The translations under genes were made by a program, and so were the position numbers. This document shows positions 7,882 to 27,950 of a stretch of DNA of 36,675 nt, one piece after another. Within the stretch, counting starts at the first letter, position 1; the number at the start of each line of letters is the position of its first letter. The notes beneath the pieces were generated by a model. The model was given only the letters and a program-made list of their open reading frames with translations. It had not been told where the DNA came from and made no database searches. The stretch comes from Acidobacteriota bacterium. Its GTDB lineage: Bacteria; Acidobacteriota; Thermoanaerobaculia; UBA5066; Gp7-AA6. Location: assembly GCA_003222385.1 (NCBI GenBank), contig QHVV01000002.1:1-36675 (forward strand), given 5' to 3'.

Positions 7882-9225
7882 TCACCCCCGGGGGGCCGGC
7901 AGCGGAAGGCGCGACAGATCCAGACCGCGCACCCCCTTGCGGGCTGCCTTCATCAGTTTTCGCATCTGCTGGTACTGCTTCACAAGACGGTTGATCTCCG
8001 CCACCGTGGTCCCCGAGCCGGCGGCAATTCGCTTCTTGCGGCTGCCGTTCAAGACCTGCGGGTAGCGCCGTTCGTCCGGCGTCATCGAGTCGATGATCGC
8101 GGCGATGCGGACGAGCGAGGAGTCGTCGACGGCGTCGGTCGAGGCGAGGCTCTTGAATGCTCCCCCCTTCGGCAGCAGATCGAGAAGGCCCGAGACCGGC
8201 CCCATCTTCTTCATCGACCGGAGCTGGTCCCGCAGGTCCTCGAGCGTGAAGTCGCCGGCGCGGGCCCGGTCGGCCATCTTTTCCGCGGTGGAGGCGTCCA
8301 CCTGAGCCTCGACTTTTTCGATCAGGGTCAGGACGTCTCCCAGGCCCAGAATCCGCGAGGCCATCCGGTCGGGATGAAACGGCTCGAAGTCCTGAGGCTT
8401 CTCGCCGACGCCGACGAACTTGATCGGCTTGCCGACCGTCGAGACCACCGAAAGCGCGGCGCCGCCGCGCGCGTCGCCGTCCGCCTTCGTGAAGACGATC
8501 CCGGTCAGCGGCAGAGCCGCAGCGAAGCCGGCGGCCGAACGGACCGCGTCCTGGCCGGTCATGGCGTCCGCCACGAAGAGGACCTCTCCGGGGTGAACCG
8601 CGTCGGTGACCGCACGGACTTCGTTCATCAGGTCTTCGTCGAGATGGAGCCGGCCGGCCGTGTCGAGAATCACGGTGTCGCGCCCGGTCAAACGCGCCTC
8701 GGTCACCCCTTCGCGCGCGACCGCGACGGCGTCCCGACCTTCGCCCGGCTCGAAGACCGGAACCCCGATCTGACGCCCGAGCGTCTTCAGCTGCGACACC
8801 GCGGCCGGCCGCGAGAGGTCGGCCGCCACGAGAAGCGGATAGCGCCCGCGCCCTTTCAAGTGGAGAGCGAGCTTGCCCGCCGAAGTCGTCTTGCCGGATC
8901 CCTGGAGGCCGACCATTTCGATGATCGCCGGACGGCCCTCGAGGAGGAGATCTTCCTTCTGACCGCCGAGCAGGAGGACGAGCTCGTCCCGGACGATCCG
9001 CGTCACTTCCTGCGCCGGCGACAGCTCCTGCATCACCTTCCCGCCGACCGCCTTCTCGCGAACGCGCGCGGTGAAATTCCTGACGACCGGAAGCGCCACG
9101 TCCGCCTCCAGGAGCGAGAGCCGGATCTGTCGGAGCGCCGAGTCGAGATGGTATTCGGTCAGGTGGCCTTCGCCCTTGAGCTCCTTGAAGACTCCCTGGA
9201 TTCGATCTCCCAACGATTCGAACAC
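7882..9225 (-). CDS. ffh: Signal recognition particle GTPase Ffh
   Basis: Protein component of the signal recognition particle, which brings ribosomes making membrane proteins to FtsY. Seen: an N-terminal helical bundle, the P-loop GLQGSGKTT at 106-114, the DTAGRLHLDEDLM motif, TKADGDARGG, and the G-domain end GVGEKPQDFEPFHP, followed by the M domain with its SMTPDERR and GSGTTVAEINRLVKQY segments. Length 447 is typical. The GTG at 9225 is preceded by CGGAGG and gives the expected VFESLGDR N-terminus; the much longer open frame upstream is an artefact. It is the first gene of the long minus-strand operon and has a promoter candidate just upstream. Confidence 0.95.
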   Translation of the reverse strand: MFESLGDRIQGVFKELKGEGHLTEYHLDSALRQIRLSLLEADVALPVVRNFTARVREKAVGGKVMQELSPAQEVTRIVRDELVLLLGGQKEDLLLEGRPAIIEMVGLQGSGKTTSAGKLALHLKGRGRYPLLVAADLSRPAAVSQLKTLGRQIGVPVFEPGEGRDAVAVAREGVTEARLTGRDTVILDTAGRLHLDEDLMNEVRAVTDAVHPGEVLFVADAMTGQDAVRSAAGFAAALPLTGIVFTKADGDARGGAALSVVSTVGKPIKFVGVGEKPQDFEPFHPDRMASRILGLGDVLTLIEKVEAQVDASTAEKMADRARAGDFTLEDLRDQLRSMKKMGPVSGLLDLLPKGGAFKSLASTDAVDDSSLVRIAAIIDSMTPDERRYPQVLNGSRKKRIAAGSGTTVAEINRLVKQYQQMRKLMKAARKGVRGLDLSRLPLPAPRG

Positions 9226-9248
9226 TCGGCCTCCGATGGAAGGGCGGA

Positions 9249-9277
9249 AGGATACCGGCCCCGACGAAACGCCGCAA
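9249..9277 (-). promoter_or_regulatory. Sigma-70-like promoter for the ffh operon
   Basis: On the minus strand TTGCGG (9277-9272) is separated by exactly 17 nt from TATCCT (9254-9249), 23 nt upstream of the ffh GTG. The -10 is good, the -35 moderate. It is divergent from the promoter at 9305. Confidence 0.55.
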
Positions 9278-9304
9278 CGCGCGGGCAGGACGGGGTTTCC
9301 CGGC

Positions 9305-9332
9305 TTGACAGACCCCCTCGTTGGGATATCAT
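9305..9332 (+). promoter_or_regulatory. Strong sigma-70-like promoter of the Thr-rich lipoprotein
   Basis: A perfect -35 TTGACA (9305-9310) and a -10 TATCAT (9327-9332) with a 16-nt spacer. It is the best plus-strand consensus promoter in the window and gives a leader of about 65 nt before the lipoprotein ATG. Confidence 0.75.
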
Positions 9333-9405
9333 GCGCTCGCTTTTCCCGCTGTTCGAGGCGGTTCGCAAAGAAGCAGTTCGCCAGTAACGAGAAGGAGAGA
9401 GGGAG

Positions 9406-9645
9406 ATGAAGAAGTTCCTGACCCTGGTCTTCGCAGCCGTTTTCGGAACGGTGCTCCTCACCGGTTGCACCAAGAAGGAGGAGACGACCACAACGACCGA
9501 AACCTCGACGACCGAGGCGCCGGCCGTGGTCGAGGAAACGGCCACCACCATGACCGCGACGACGATGACGGAGACCCCCGCGATGACGACGACCACGGAG
9601 ACGACCACCACGATGACGACGACGACCACCACGAATACTCCGTAA
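9406..9645 (+). CDS. Threonine-rich mini-lipoprotein, function unknown
   Basis: A 79-residue secreted lipoprotein. Seen: MKKFLTLVF start, hydrophobic core and lipobox LTGC, so C21 would be lipidated. The mature 59-residue chain starts CTKKEE and is then almost entirely low complexity; about 32 of 59 residues are Thr, broken up by Met, Glu, Ala and Pro in TTM/TTE-like units. No fold is expected; it would form an extended, possibly O-glycosylated stalk. Expression signals are strong: a near-consensus promoter, AAGGAG before the ATG and an intrinsic terminator just after, so it is an isolated monocistronic gene that may be abundant. I do not recognise a named family. An outer-membrane spacer or wall-tethering role is speculation. 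Confidence 0.82.
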   Translation: MKKFLTLVFAAVFGTVLLTGCTKKEETTTTTETSTTEAPAVVEETATTMTATTMTETPAMTTTTETTTTMTTTTTTNTP

Positions 9646-9667
9646 CTCTTTCTCTTTCGTCTGTCGG

Positions 9668-9698
9668 AGGCCCCCGCGAACGGGGGCCTTTCGTTTTG
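9668..9698 (+). terminator. Rho-independent terminator after the Thr-rich lipoprotein
   Basis: Perfect 9-bp stem AGGCCCCCG / CGGGGGCCT with a CGAA tetraloop (9668-9689), followed by TTCGTTTT. It lies 23 nt after the stop codon and closes the lipoprotein unit before the next gene. Confidence 0.9.
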
Positions 9699-9738
9699 GA
9701 GAAGCCGGGGCGGCCGAGCTTTCGAGAGCTCCTGCCGC

Positions 9739-9744
9739 TACACT
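9739..9744 (+). promoter_or_regulatory. -10 element for the diguanylate cyclase gene
   Basis: TACACT sits 8 nt before the GTG start at 9753 and no Shine-Dalgarno sequence lies between. Transcription would begin at or next to the GTG, suggesting a leaderless message. No clear -35 is seen. Confidence 0.45.
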
Positions 9745-9752
9745 CCAATCGG

Positions 9753-10886
9753 GTGCTGCCTCTCTGGGGAGAAGCTCTTCTCGCGTTCGTGGCGATCGCT
9801 GCCGGTGTCCTCGCGTGGCAGGCCCGGTCGCGCGAGCAGGCGCTGGCGGCGCGCCTCGCGGCCCGCGAGCGCGGCGGCCACTTCCTGGGCGAGTCTCCCG
9901 AGCCCGCCGAGATCCTGAAGCACGCCTACACCGCGGCGGCCGCGATTCTCCCGGTGACATGCTTCGATCTCTACAGGATCGATCCGGAGGGCAAGGTCGA
10001 CGAAGTCTGGACCTTGTCGCCCGGCGAGGCCGGGGAGCTCGAGCCGGCGCTCGACCCGGCGAGCCCCCTCCTCGCATCGCCCGTCGACGCGCGAAGGATC
10101 CGCGATCTGTCGGCCACGGAGACGGAACGCTCCTTCGCCCCGCGCGATCTCCTGGCGGGCGGTCCCGTCCGCCGCCTCCGTCTTCCCCTCTTCTCCGGGG
10201 ACCGCCTGGTCGCTCACCTCGATCTCGCGAGCTCGGAGCCGATCGACGAGGAGAAGAAGAGCGAGATCCGCGCCCTGCTCGGTCCGCTCACGGTCTCTCT
10301 CCACGCCTCCCGCAACTGGAGGGTCGCCGTCACCGACGAGCTCTCGGGCCTCGCCTCGCGCCGCTATTTCGAAGCGCGCCTGGCGGAGGAGTGGGCGCGC
10401 CGCGACCGTTACGAGACCCCTCTCTCCATCGCCTGCTTCGATCTCGACCGGTTCAAGGCGGTCAACGACACCATGGGCCACGCCGCGGGCGACCTGGTCC
10501 TGCGCCGGTTCGGCGTCATCATCGGCAGCGTCGTGCGCGCGAGCGACCTCGCCTGCCGGTTCGGCGGGGAGGAGTTCGCGATGCTCTTCCCGAACACGGC
10601 GGCGGCCTCCGCCCGGATCGTCGTCGAACGAATCCGTCGGGCGCTCGAGCGGAACCGTTTCGAGACGGACGGCCGGGATTTCTGGGTCACCGTCTCGGCG
10701 GGAGTGGCCGACGCGACGGCCACGGAAGGGCTCGACCCGAGCAAGCTCCTCGCGCGCGCCGACCAGGCGCTCTACGCGGCGAAGGCCGGTGGCCGCAACC
10801 GCGTGCGGATCTGGACGGAGCGCGTCGGGCGCGACGCGGCCGCGACGACCGGGCGTCCTCCGGCGGTTCGGCCAGAGGGAACGTGA
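9753..10886 (+). CDS. Membrane-anchored diguanylate cyclase (GGDEF protein)
   Basis: Makes the second messenger c-di-GMP from two GTP. Seen: an N-terminal membrane segment at about 5-24 (ALLAFVAIAAGVLAW), a GAF-like sensory region at about 45-190 without a specific family match by eye, then a GGDEF domain from about 200. The active-site loop is GGEEF at 271-275, a catalytically competent variant. An RxxD product-inhibition site (RASD, 262-265) sits at the standard five-residue distance, so feedback inhibition is expected. FDLDRFKAVNDTMGHAAGD is the substrate-binding block. The GTG start is supported by the membrane helix and the adjacent -10 hexamer. The 3' end overlaps the next gene as GTGA. 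Confidence 0.88.
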   Translation: MLPLWGEALLAFVAIAAGVLAWQARSREQALAARLAARERGGHFLGESPEPAEILKHAYTAAAAILPVTCFDLYRIDPEGKVDEVWTLSPGEAGELEPALDPASPLLASPVDARRIRDLSATETERSFAPRDLLAGGPVRRLRLPLFSGDRLVAHLDLASSEPIDEEKKSEIRALLGPLTVSLHASRNWRVAVTDELSGLASRRYFEARLAEEWARRDRYETPLSIACFDLDRFKAVNDTMGHAAGDLVLRRFGVIIGSVVRASDLACRFGGEEFAMLFPNTAAASARIVVERIRRALERNRFETDGRDFWVTVSAGVADATATEGLDPSKLLARADQALYAAKAGGRNRVRIWTERVGRDAAATTGRPPAVRPEGT

Positions 10887-23629: not shown

Positions 23630-24643
23630 TCACGCCGCCAGGATCTCGCGAACTGCTTCCCGGCCGGCGCGAAGGCCTTCGGACAGAAGGTCTTCCCGTT
23701 TGCCTCCGGCCTGAGCGAGGTCGGGCTTCCCCCCGCCGGAGCCCCCCAGGGCCTGGCCGATCCGCGCCGCTACGCGCGAGGCCGGAACGCGTTCGACCAG
23801 ATCCGGCGTCACCGCCGCGACGACGGACGTCTTGCCTTCCCGGGACGTCCCGACCAGGACGACCCCGCTCTTGACCCGGGACCGCAGCGTGTCGGAAAGA
23901 TTCCGCAGCTCCGGGATCGACAACCCCGGGACGAGGCGGGTGACGACGCGGACTCCTTCGATCTCTTCACTCTCTCCTTCGTTTCCCGAGTCGCCCGAGG
24001 CGAGCTTCATCTTGAGCGAAGCGACCTCGCGCTCCAGCGTTTTCAACCGCTCTTCCCGCTCTTCCCATCGATCGAGGAGGGTTTCCCGGGGCGCCTGCGC
24101 TGCGGCGGAGAGCCGGTTCAAGGCCTCCTCGTCGCTCTTCAAGAGCTCGACGGCGCCGAGCGAGGTGACCGCCTCGAGCCGCCGGACGCCCGCCGCGAGA
24201 GATCGGTCCGAGACGATCTTGAACGCGCCGATCTCGCCGGTGCGGGGGACGTGGCAGCCTCCGCAGAGTTCGGTCGAGAAGCCCGGCACTTCCACCACGC
24301 GCACGCGATCGGAGTACTTGTCCCAGAAGAACATGTCCGCGCCGCGCCGCCGCGCTTCCTCCATCGGGAGGATGGACTTCGTCACCTCGCGGTCGCGCAG
24401 AACCTCCTCGTTGACCAGGCGCTCGATCTCGGCGATCTGTGCGGGCGTGGGCGGAGCCGCGGCCGCGTAGTCGAACCGTAGCCGATCGGGCGCGACGAGT
24501 GAGCCCATCTGGCGCGCTCCCGCTCCGAGCACCTTCCGCAGGGCGGCGTGCAGGAGGTGGGTGCCGGTGTGGTTCGCCTGGGTGCGCCGGCGGATCCATT
24601 CCGGCACGCGCATGTCGACGGTGGCGTTGCGCTCGAGGCGGCC
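23630..24643 (-). CDS. alaS: Alanyl-tRNA synthetase, C-terminal part after a frameshift
   Basis: The second half of alaS, in the -1 frame relative to the first half. Seen: the editing-domain zinc ligands in NHTGTHLLHAALR and CGGCHVPRTGEIGAFKI, the DYAAAAPPTPAQIAEIERLVNEEV block, then a coiled coil and a C-terminal C-Ala domain ending GGSGGGKPDLAQAGGKREDLL. These clear mischarged Ser/Gly-tRNA(Ala) and bind tRNA. If read alone, translation could only begin at an internal codon such as ATG 24613, giving a fragment without catalysis. Conservation through to the C-terminus shows the frame is under normal selection and that the break is recent, recoded or a sequence error. Confidence 0.85.
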   Translation of the reverse strand, partial: GRLERNATVDMRVPEWIRRRTQANHTGTHLLHAALRKVLGAGARQMGSLVAPDRLRFDYAAAAPPTPAQIAEIERLVNEEVLRDREVTKSILPMEEARRRGADMFFWDKYSDRVRVVEVPGFSTELCGGCHVPRTGEIGAFKIVSDRSLAAGVRRLEAVTSLGAVELLKSDEEALNRLSAAAQAPRETLLDRWEEREERLKTLEREVASLKMKLASGDSGNEGESEEIEGVRVVTRLVPGLSIPELRNLSDTLRSRVKSGVVLVGTSREGKTSVVAAVTPDLVERVPASRVAARIGQALGGSGGGKPDLAQAGGKREDLLSEGLRAGREAVREILAA

Positions 24644-26301
24644 CGCACGACCCGCACGCGGTGGGCAATCGTGTCGGGTCGCGGCTTCCAGACGTGGAGG
24701 ACTTCGGCCTGGCCGCCGGGCCATTCCCAGGAACCGGTGTCGGCGATCTGTCCTCCTCCTTCGGGATAGAAGACGGTCCGGTCGGCGACCGCTTCGCCCG
24801 TCTCGCCGGCCTCGAGCCGCGCTGCGGGAGCGCCCTCCTTCGCGAGCCCCACGATCCGCGCCCCGTCCAAAGAAACGAAGTCGTGCTCCGGATATCCGCG
24901 GAAGACCGAGTGACCCGGAGGCAGGTCGAGTTTGTCGTAGACGGAGACGTCGGCGGCCGCGAACTTCGCGGCCGAGCGCGACGCCCGACGCTGCTCTTCC
25001 AGCAGCTTCTCGAACCCTTCCTCGTCGAGCGAGACCCCTTCGTCCGCCGCGATCTCGTGGATCACCTCGATCGGGATCCCGTAGGTGTCGTAGAGCCGGA
25101 AAACGGTCTCTCCCGAAAGGACCGACTCGTGTCGCTGCCTCGCCCGGCTCGCGGCTTCGCCGATGCGGTCGATTCCCTCGGTGAGCGTCCGCGCGAAGCG
25201 CTCTTCCTCCGGACGAAGGACGTCGGCGACGCGCCGGATCACCCCGTCCGCCTCTCCCGCCTCGATGTGGATGCCGCGGTAGACGTCGACGACCGGCCGG
25301 GCCAGACGGTGGAGGAACGGCTCGTGGAGCCCGAGACGGCGACCGTAACGCAACGCGCGACGCAGGATCCGCCGCAGCACGTAGCCGCGCCCCTCGTTCG
25401 AGGGGAGCACGCCGTCGGCGATCAACATGGTCGCGGCCCGCGCGTGGTCCGCGATGACGCGATAGGGGATGTCCTCGACCGCGAAATTTCCGCGATACCT
25501 CGGTCCGCCGCTGCCGGATACGATGTCCGAAAGGCTCGAGAGGATTCCGGCGAAGAGGTCGGTGTCGAAGTTGTTTCCGACCCCCTGGAGCACGGCCGCC
25601 AGCCTCTCGAGACCCGCTCCCGTGTCCACCGACGGTCGGGGCAGAGGCTCGAGCTTGCCGGAACCGTCCCGCTCGAACTGCATGAACACCAGATTCCAGA
25701 CCTCGATCGTCTCGTCGCCGGGGGCGTTGACCCGATCCGCGGAATTGCCCGAAAGATCCTTCCCGCGGAAGTAGTGAACCTCGGAGCACGGCCCGCACGG
25801 CCCGGTGTCCCCCATCGCCCAGAAGTTCTCGGACTCGCCGAAACGGAGGACCCGCTCCTTCGGAAGAAAGCGCTCCCAAATCGCGGCGGCGTCGTCATCG
25901 GACAGGAAGACGGTCGCCCACAGGCGCGCGGGATCGAGGCCGTAGCCGACGTCGCGATCGGTCAGGAGCTCCCACGCGAACCGGATCGCGTCTTCCTTGA
26001 AGTAGTCGCCGAACGAGAAGTTGCCGAGCATCTCGAAGAAGGTGTGGTGCCGTCCGGTGTACCCGACGTTGTCGAGGTCGTTGTGCTTCCCGCCCGCCCG
26101 AACGCATTTCTGCGAGCTGGTGGCGCGCCTGTAGTCGCGGGCTTCCCGTCCCGTGAAGACGTCCTTGAACTGGACCATGCCGGCGTTGGTGAAGAGAAGG
26201 GTCGGATCTTCCGCCGGGACGAGCGAGGACGACGGGACGCGGCGGTGCCCACGCTCCTCGAAGAAGCTAAGAAACCGTTCGCGGACCTCGTTGGTTGTCA
26301 T
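24643..26301 (-). CDS. alaS: Alanyl-tRNA synthetase, N-terminal catalytic part, frameshifted
   Basis: Charges tRNA(Ala) and is essential. Seen: ATG at 26301, class II motif 1 (LLFTNAGMVQFKDVFTG), motif 2 region GYTGRHHTFFEMLGNFSFGDYFK, motif 3 EGRGYVLRRILRRALRYGR, then the tRNA-recognition helices and the start of the editing domain (FYPEGGGQIADTG). The frame is correct until HRVRVVR near 24645; beyond that it reads through about 85 unrelated residues to a stop at 24382. One extra G in the GGG run at 24644-24642 would restore a continuous protein with exactly the family spacing to HTGTH. The 5' end overlaps the recX 3' end by 35 nt. Confidence 0.9.
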
Positions 26302-26797
26302 TCGCGTTTTGGAGTTTTTTCTCGAACCGATCGATCATCTCAGAAACCTTCGCCGGCGAGAATCCCCGGCGCGCCAGAGAATCGATCACGCGGCGCCGCC
26401 GCACGCGGGAGGGAAGGCGGGCGTTCGATTTCCAGGCTCGGTCCAACGACTTAGAGAGCGCGATTTCTTCCCGCTCGGGACCGCGCTCGGCGAGGGCCGT
26501 CTCGACCGTCTCGCGGGAGAAGCCGCGCGTCGAGAGTTCTCTCTCGAGGCGCCGCGCGCCGTAGCGCTCGCCGCGGGTCCGCACCGCGGAGCGGGCGGCG
26601 CCGAGGTCGTCGAGCCAACCTTCGCTTTCGAGCCGATCGACCGCGTCGTGGACGGCGGCCCGATCGAAACCGCGATCGCCGAGCGCTCGGGTCAGCTCCG
26701 TTCGGCCGCGCGGCCGGATCGAGAGGAGCCGCAGGCCTCGCTCGCGCGCCGCGTCGGGCGAGGAGGTGTCGGGAGGGGCCTTCTTCCCCGTGTCTAT
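26267..26797 (-). CDS. recX: Regulatory protein RecX, start codon non-canonical
   Basis: Modulates RecA filaments. Seen: three-helix RecX repeats, for example RGLRLLSIRPRGRTELTRAL, DRLESEGWLDDLGAARSAV, RYGARRLERELSTRGFSRET and RRRRVIDSLARRGFSPAKVSEMI. About 170 residues fit the family. No in-frame ATG, GTG or TTG exists before roughly residue 60, or for over 100 codons upstream into pilT. The likeliest start lies at the pilT stop, where ATA (26797-26795) overlaps TAG as ATAG; this is inference. recX commonly sits between recA and alaS; here pilT occupies the recA position. Downstream it overlaps alaS. Confidence 0.78.
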   Translation of the reverse strand: MDTGKKAPPDTSSPDAARERGLRLLSIRPRGRTELTRALGDRGFDRAAVHDAVDRLESEGWLDDLGAARSAVRTRGERYGARRLERELSTRGFSRETVETALAERGPEREEIALSKSLDRAWKSNARLPSRVRRRRVIDSLARRGFSPAKVSEMIDRFEKKLQNANDNQRGPRTVS

Positions 26798-27765
26798 CTT
26801 CCGGGCGGGACCTGATTCGAGAAATCGAACGGAGACTCCTCGTCGAGAGGGTTGAACGCGGTCGGCATCTCGAGCACCGAGTCCATCGCTTCCTGGGCGA
26901 CGTCGCTCGTCGACTGGATCCCCTGGATCTTCAGCCGGAACTCGTTGGGGTTCGTCGCGCGGCGCAGCGCCTCTTCCAGCGTGATGAGACCGGCCCGGTA
27001 GAGGCCGTACAGCGACTGGTCGAACGTCTGCATGCCGTACTGCGAAGTCCCGGCCTGGATCGCGTCCCGCAGGAGGCTCGTCTTCTCCTTGTTCTCGATG
27101 CATTCGCGCACGTAGCCGGTCCGGACGAGGATCTCGACGGCGGGCACCCGCCCGAGGCCATCCGCCCGCGGCATGAGACGCATCGACAGGACTGCCCGGA
27201 TCACTGCGCCCAGCTGGAGCCGGATCTGTTTCTGCTGGTGGGGAGGCACGACCGAAATGATGCGGTTGACGGTTTCGGTCGCATCGAGCGTGTGCAGCGT
27301 CGAGAGCACCAGATGGCCGGTCTCCGCCGCGACGAGCGCCGTTTCGATCGTCTCGTAGTCGCGCATCTCTCCCACCAGGATGACGTCCGGATCCTGGCGC
27401 AGTGCGCTGCGAAGCGCGATCGAGAAGCCCTTCGTATCCACGTCCACTTCGCGCTGGTTGATGATCGACTTCCTGTCCCGGTGAAGGAACTCGATCGGGT
27501 CCTCGATCGTCATGATGTGCTCGTTGCGGGTCGCGTTGATCAGGTCGATCATGGCCGCGAGGGTCGTCGACTTCCCGGATCCGGTCGTTCCCGTGCAGAG
27601 GATGAGTCCCCGCTGCTCCTGGCAGATCTTTTCGATCACCGGCGGGAGCAGGAGCTCCCGAATCGTCCGGATCTTCTGGGGAATCACTCGAAGGACGAGC
27701 CCGACGGTCCCCCGCTGCTGAAAGATGTTGCAGCGGAAGCGGCCGAGCGTCGGCACCGAGTATTC
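26794..27765 (-). CDS. pilT: Twitching motility ATPase PilT, C-terminal part after a frameshift
   Basis: Retraction motor of type IV pili; a hexameric ATPase. Seen in this frame: the end of the N-terminal PAS-like domain (YSVPTLGRFRCNIFQQRG), Walker A GTTGSGKST, the Asp box MTIEDPIEFLHR, Walker B DPDVILVGEMRD, the His box ETGHLVLSTLHTLDA, and the retraction-associated AIQAGTSQYGMQTFDQSL. Catalytic motifs are complete. Standing alone it could begin at the GTG at 27756, lacking the first 60-odd residues. The frame is -1 relative to the N-terminal part, and about nine residues of the family consensus are missing at the junction. Confidence 0.88.
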   Translation of the reverse strand, partial: EYSVPTLGRFRCNIFQQRGTVGLVLRVIPQKIRTIRELLLPPVIEKICQEQRGLILCTGTTGSGKSTTLAAMIDLINATRNEHIMTIEDPIEFLHRDRKSIINQREVDVDTKGFSIALRSALRQDPDVILVGEMRDYETIETALVAAETGHLVLSTLHTLDATETVNRIISVVPPHQQKQIRLQLGAVIRAVLSMRLMPRADGLGRVPAVEILVRTGYVRECIENKEKTSLLRDAIQAGTSQYGMQTFDQSLYGLYRAGLITLEEALRRATNPNEFRLKIQGIQSTSDVAQEAMDSVLEMPTAFNPLDEESPFDFSNQVPPGR

Positions 27766-27950
27766 TCCTTCTGTCGCGCCGACATGATCGAAAACGCCAT
27801 GGCCACGGTCTCTTCCTGCATGAGCGGGCGCAGCTCGGCGAGCGGGATGAGTGTTCCGTCCACACGGATGACGGGATGGGCGCCGACCTTGAGATGAAGG
27901 TCGGAGGCGCTGCGGTCGACTGCGATCTTGAGCAGGTCGTTGATCAGCAC
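27765..27950 (-). CDS. pilT: PilT, N-terminal fragment
   Basis: First 62 codons of pilT from a GTG with GGAG upstream. Seen: INDLLKIAVDRSASDLHLKV, IRVDGTLIPLAELRPLMQEE and AFSIMSARQKE, a close match to the PilT N-terminal domain. After RQKE the frame drifts into unrelated residues ending at 27684. The ATPase part resumes one frame away. In the Pseudomonas protein an FEExLExDF-like segment stands between these points; it is absent here, so about 28 nt seem to be missing, not just one base. Confidence 0.85.

Follow-up and report, generated by a model that had tools for sequence, protein, structure and literature searches.

What does a short, threonine-rich lipoprotein gene beside ffh contribute to the cell envelope of an Acidobacteriota bacterium, and is it a genuine gene at all? 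The gene lies in a stretch of 36,675 nt (hereafter the window). The original prediction described a self-contained unit, likened its product to Lpp-type major lipoproteins, and considered the mature chain suited to dense O-glycosylation. We compared the gene and its protein with those of related genomes and with known lipoprotein families.

The gene, its product and its expression signals

The unit and its two neighbours are arranged as follows:

7882..9225, minus strand: ffh (SRP54), divergent neighbour (554 bits for TIGR00959, cut-off 473); start codon approximate
9305..9332, plus strand: sigma-70-type promoter TTGACA-N16-TATCAT, with TTGACA at 9305-9310 and TATCAT at 9327-9332
9392..9397, plus strand: ribosome-binding site AAGGAG, 8 nt 5' of the ATG, from the sequence and the orthologues
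9406..9645, plus strand: small lipoprotein gene, 79 aa plus stop; open reading frame with orthologues found by search
9406..9465, plus strand: signal peptide MKKFLTLVFAAVFGTVLLTG with lipobox LTGC; MKK and Cys21 invariant in 12/12 aligned orthologues
9466..9468, plus strand: Cys21, putative lipid acceptor and first mature residue
9514..9537, plus strand: conserved core EAPAVVEE (residues 37-44); PxVVEE invariant in 12/12 aligned orthologues
9538..9642, plus strand: low-complexity tail, 66% Thr in the window protein, taken as disordered from its composition and a low-confidence model
9668..9697, plus strand: intrinsic terminator-like hairpin and T-rich run, from the sequence, with the hairpin also in orthologues
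9753..10886, plus strand: GGDEF diguanylate cyclase, downstream neighbour (PF00990, 5.9e-44); start codon approximate

The promoter, predicted to be near consensus, matched the consensus at 11 of 12 positions and was the single promoter found in a scan of 8800-10200, where shuffled sequence gave a mean of 0.1. A perfect TTGACA followed by a 16-nt spacer and TAnnnT was present upstream of all 14 orthologues (described below), 13 of which also passed a stricter 9-of-12 test (G012 failed). The pattern TTGACA-N15..18-TAnnnT occurred in 14/14 upstream regions of 300 nt, compared with 7 of 7000 mononucleotide shuffles; when both strands of the 14 loci were divided into 300-nt tiles, 14/280 contained it. 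The ribosome site was likewise as strong as had been proposed, and AAGGAG lay at most 20 nt upstream of the ATG in every one of the 14 orthologues.

The predicted intrinsic terminator also stood up to inspection. The G+C-rich hairpin AGGCCCCCG-CGAA-CGGGGGCCT at 9668-9689 begins 22 nt past the stop codon and is followed by TTCGTTTT. A stock terminator scan of 8800-10200 reported none (0.8 expected in shuffles); we think that the stem may continue into the T run through G-T pairing. All 14 orthologues have a perfect hairpin of 8-13 pairs located 19-26 nt past the stop, a raw count without shuffle control. Promoter and hairpin accompany the gene even in G011 and G016, which carry it at a site away from ffh. 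The joint conservation of promoter, ribosome site and hairpin makes strong expression of the gene as a single unit likely. Codon usage is uninformative in this respect, because the Thr codons of the gene are mostly ACC and ACG, as in the seven other window genes that were tallied.

A further element was noted in the leaders of a second family, f2 (L037-L043, L045, L046, L048 and L049). All 11 f2 orthologues carry GAAGCTYG after the -10 box, close to where the transcript is expected to begin, and the leader measures 120-238 nt from this motif to the ATG. Promoter plus GAAGCTYG occurred exactly once in each of those 11 genomes and was absent from the remaining 9 of the 20 genomes searched, and a reversed-pattern control gave no match. 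The motif is absent from the window genome. An ungapped leader stem of 5-7 pairs can be drawn in 9/11 cases, with only 2-3 pairs in G008 and G016. This hairpin is suggestive only: no single sequence went beyond its shuffles, and at best 116 of 2000 shuffles reached the stem. Rfam at gathering score, applied to the window and 12 loci, found only two neighbouring tRNAs, and we therefore rejected a known RNA element in the leader; the remaining sub-threshold matches were taken as chance.

The encoded protein has an MKK n-region and an LTGC lipobox, read from its sequence, which are the general marks of bacterial lipoproteins and agree with the predicted lipobox. Its mature chain of 59 aa is 54% Thr, the value originally estimated, and contains 8 acidic, 2 basic and no aromatic residues. 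It ends in NTP, with Pro rather than Lys as the last residue. The near-constant distance from stop to hairpin across orthologues argues that this end is real and not the product of a frameshift. A single-chain structure model had low confidence (mean pLDDT 63.5); it showed a helix only at residues 4-12, within the signal peptide, and neither helix nor strand in the tail or the rest of the mature chain. Because of the low confidence of the model, disorder of the mature chain is proposed mainly on the basis of composition.

Two irregularities of reading frames were seen in the window. A second open frame at 9321-10886 (plus strand) spans the lipoprotein gene and runs into the GGDEF gene, and in this frame the tail would read Asp/His-rich; it was taken as a by-product of G+C-rich repeats. 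At 23630-26301 and 26794-27950 (both minus strand), the genes read as alanyl-tRNA synthetase and PilT each seem to be divided between two overlapping frames, suggesting either indel errors in this draft genome or real frameshifts.

Distribution in the order and genomic position

Low expression and the absence of a conserved gene in relatives had been named as what would refute the original prediction, and the second of these is contradicted by the searches described here. A search with the single sequence matched only 4/100 genomes, the source genome included, owing to the divergence of the tail; in the other three genomes the gene adjoins ffh as in the window. Paralogues in its own genome were discounted, as the four other matches there were weak, the best of them at E 0.19. 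We then read the upstream flanks of ffh with a lipobox pattern at the 30 loci that scored best in a search of 60 genomes. A divergent small lipoprotein ORF was present upstream of ffh in 13 of 14 loci from the order, the exception being G011, and the copy in G006 was cut by a contig end. With the same pattern, no such ORF was seen at 16 ffh loci from other orders of the class, among which the flank was only 6 nt in L019 and 652 nt in L011. The one pattern match at these loci (L023) is an unrelated 36-aa ORF with a GTG start.

In a profile search of 148 genomes of the class, 14 genomes matched with E no higher than 6.5e-13. All of them belong to the order, and they include G011 and G016, in which the gene sits elsewhere than beside ffh. 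The gene was thus found in 14 of the 19 genomes of this order (phylum Acidobacteriota) that came up in the searches, with a truncated fifteenth copy in G006, and 13 of these 15 copies are divergent beside ffh. The four listed genomes without it (G002, G015, G017 and G018) also lacked a full-length ffh match, so that missing contigs may explain the absence. In a draw of 396 genomes of the phylum, 7 genomes matched at 1e-5, all in the order.

Outside the order, 8/148 class genomes gave weak matches (E 6.7e-8 to 8e-4). The best, in G073, is a different Thr-rich lipoprotein without PxVVEE. The lipobox pattern found ORFs at the weak-match loci L050, L053 and L056, which are small Thr/Asp-rich lipoproteins of another kind, lacking this motif, and no ORF at the weak-match loci L051, L052, L054, L055 and L057-L060. 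A second match in G011 (E 1.7e-6) was weak and was excluded from the orthologues. The Thr/Asp-rich lipoproteins of L050, L056 and L053 belong to family f7 of the class, where they are paired a few hundred bases apart and end in ATK or KKH.

An obligate pairing with the GGDEF gene was rejected, as a tblastn search of loci with roughly 1.5 kb of flank placed GGDEF beside the lipoprotein gene in just two genomes other than that of the window, G001 and G004. A functional link to the signal recognition particle through ffh is weak in view of the different location of the gene in G011 and G016. In these two genomes (L049 and L046, respectively), a tRNA gene rather than ffh lies upstream, and the downstream ORFs resemble, by eye, a HAD hydrolase and a thioredoxin.

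The recurrence of protein, promoter and hairpin in relatives indicates that the window unit is more than a product of chance. Judged by these searches, the lipoprotein belongs to a genuine gene family that is conserved within a single order and seems to be unnamed.

A conserved core and an exchangeable tail

Orthologue lengths ranged from 76 to 89 aa (n=14). In an alignment of 12 of them, the invariant residues were M1, K2, K3, C21, E25, P39, V41, V42, E43 and E44. G011 and G016, which were compared separately, likewise have MKK, the Cys and PKVVEE. The tail past VVEE comprises 35-48 residues in the 14 orthologues. Of its codons, 80-88% have C as their middle base, encoding Thr, Ala, Pro or Ser; charged residues number 2-6 and bulky residues 0-4. 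Within these bounds its composition changes widely, with Thr from 9 to 66% and Ala plus Pro from 10 to 76%. The tail is Thr-rich (51-66%) in seven orthologues, and in the remaining seven Ala and Pro together account for 60-76% and Thr for 9-22%. Both states occur in one genus, g9 (G016 versus G011).

This exchange bears on the proposal that the tail serves dense O-glycosylation. A surface-displayed lipoprotein forming a mucin-like brush of densely O-glycosylated Thr would fit the seven Thr-rich tails. Moreover, two of 12 members weakly match the Pfam Mucin model (best E 0.0021), and PMT-family proteins (PF02366) scored above cut-off in 20/20 genomes, the window genome included. However, the PMT search is non-specific, as it was also positive in 8/14 control genomes, among them E. 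coli and B. subtilis. The swap between Thr and Ala/Pro among orthologues, even within one genus, makes dense Thr O-glycosylation unlikely as a shared function. We rejected a conserved Thr glycosylation platform because half of the orthologues (7/14) are Ala/Pro-rich, and regard the brush as quite improbable and glycosylation as the purpose of the tail as probably mistaken. For the Thr-rich members, dense O-glycosylation is possible.

The tails of the window gene and of G010 show repeat structure, which suggests that they grew by slippage. Such repeats resemble what would be expected of a spurious or dispensable low-complexity ORF, and the relaxed dN/dS of several pairs points in the same direction. 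In genus g8, three pairs have 7-12 synonymous versus 1-2 non-synonymous differences. The other five pairs have dN/dS of 0.23-0.84, the highest value being that of G005/G009, and the range across all eight pairs is 0.03-0.84. These values indicate that the reading frame is clearly and strongly constrained in g8, with a constraint between moderate and weak in the other pairs. The existence of orthologues and the conserved promoter, hairpin and motif speak against a spurious or dispensable ORF, to which we give hardly any credence.

The most likely reading, which we hold with about even confidence, is a lipid-anchored chain that is disordered, works as a spacer and carries a single docking motif. 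The protein would be an envelope lipoprotein peculiar to this lineage and probably abundant, transcribed from a strong promoter of its own, exported by the Sec system, lipidated at Cys21, and probably retained in the outer membrane. In E. coli, the +2 rule places lipoproteins without Asp after the Cys in the outer membrane, and by analogy this location is likely for the window lipoprotein. The mature part would be an unfolded hydrophilic chain without a folded domain and with two sections. The first, about 25 residues past the lipid, would close with PxVVEE; the second would be the tail of mostly small, interchangeable residues. The lipid would anchor the chain. PxVVEE may dock a partner, perhaps one with a sheet in the periplasm or outer membrane that the motif extends by a short strand. 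The tail may serve as an entropic spacer or brush, separating the envelope layers and keeping them hydrated. In this way the protein could partly stand in for Lpp as a structural element, with neither coiled coil nor covalent tether. PxVVEE, being short and acidic, may also simply be a sorting or export signal.

A more far-reaching version, which we put forward only tentatively and consider rather doubtful, is that selection acts on nothing but the lipid, the short docking motif PxVVEE, the length of the chain and the smallness of its residues. A fully disordered polymer would then serve as a major envelope lipoprotein, its tail drifting between poly-Thr and poly-Ala/Pro under fixed expression signals. 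If true, this polymer would be an outer-membrane spacer of a different type from Lpp with its coiled coil, and it would show with unusual clarity how selection acts on the properties of a polymer and not on its sequence.

The family is a natural experiment in which promoter, lipid anchor and motif are shared and tail chemistry is exchanged, so that requirements for tail length, disorder and charge are directly testable with it. It also provides a candidate major envelope protein for these Acidobacteriota, known here from draft genomes. Lineage-specific abundant lipoproteins may organise the envelopes of many non-proteobacterial diderms, and few are known.

Comparison with known lipoproteins

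The original prediction knew of no named family of this type, and the model libraries agree. The window protein was below the gathering score of every Pfam-A family, with DUF4969 as the only match (13.5 bits versus 31.4), and below the cut-off of every NCBIfam model. At E up to 0.01, the only Pfam families among 12 members were New_glue and Mucin, with two members each. The top NCBIfam match was the PG1828 family lipoprotein (NF050142; 26.1 bits, cut-off 50), which covers residues 1-53, from the signal peptide into the early part of the mature chain; it was also the most widely shared NCBIfam model (5/12 members at E up to 0.01).

The main rival to the spacer, which we consider unlikely, is a small cofactor of an outer-membrane machine like LptM (NF047847), which would bind a barrel or assembly factor through its lipid and the short conserved segment and could do without its tail. 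Conservation in the window family is indeed centred on the lipid Cys and one short motif, and LptM is also a short lipoprotein with its function in a short conserved segment. Weak matches to the LptM model were obtained for three of 12 members (best E 0.0033). The score of the window protein is nevertheless sub-threshold (13.6 versus 27.7 bits) and confined to residues 1-21, the signal peptide and Cys. Motif and motif position differ, the invariant motif lying about 20 residues past the Cys, and no counterpart of the mature LptM motif is apparent. LptM is reported to act on the LPS translocon through substrate-binding mimicry (PMC10567701), and this mode of action speaks for the cofactor role.

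The window protein shares with Braun lipoprotein Lpp its small size, a single gene with its own promoter and terminator, a predicted lipid anchor, and likely abundance. The likeness in size and layout that had been predicted thus holds in part, but membership does not. The Lpp model PF04728 matched in 0/20 genomes, the source genome included, with a positive E. coli control; the window protein has no C-terminal Lys; and its chain is of low complexity, with no coiled coil and no helix past the signal peptide in the low-confidence single-chain model. A Lpp-like tether, in which an L,D-transpeptidase joins a C-terminal Lys to peptidoglycan and a disordered chain replaces the coiled coil, would be in keeping with the C-terminal Lys of 12/14 orthologues and with YkuD-family proteins (PF03734) in 14/20 genomes searched, among them two in the window genome. 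Yet in two genomes that do have YkuD the last residue is Pro (the window protein) or Asn (the protein of G014), and G003, G005 and G009 have the Lys without a YkuD match, a comparison limited to the YkuD family and to draft genomes that may miss genes. Altogether, Lys and YkuD coincide in 9/14 genomes, three (those just named) have only Lys, and two (G000 and G014) only YkuD. A Lpp-type cross-link was rejected for this inconsistent co-occurrence, and we judge the tether very improbable.

Mycobacterial lipoproteins such as LpqH are Thr/Ala/Pro-rich, O-mannosylated, and have a folded domain. The window family resembles LpqH in the Thr-rich segment past the lipid Cys, but no folded domain is apparent in it and Thr is not conserved.

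Among the papers found on threonine-rich or small lipoproteins of Acidobacteria, none concerned the window family, judged by title and opening of the abstract. The nearest published parallel that we found, likened by its description (PMC10260701), is WP_009060351 of Methylacidiphilum fumariolicum, an abundant lipoprotein proposed to link outer membrane and peptidoglycan. It is likewise a highly expressed, lineage-restricted lipoprotein with a conserved Cys and a C-terminal Lys; it differs in its length of 139 aa and in a 53-aa part confined to Verrucomicrobiota. The words "threonine", "alanine" and "disordered" did not occur in a word search of the PMC10260701 text. Small lineage-specific envelope lipoproteins are thus known as a general kind, and what sets the window family apart is the seeming lack of any folded part together with a tail whose residues can be exchanged.
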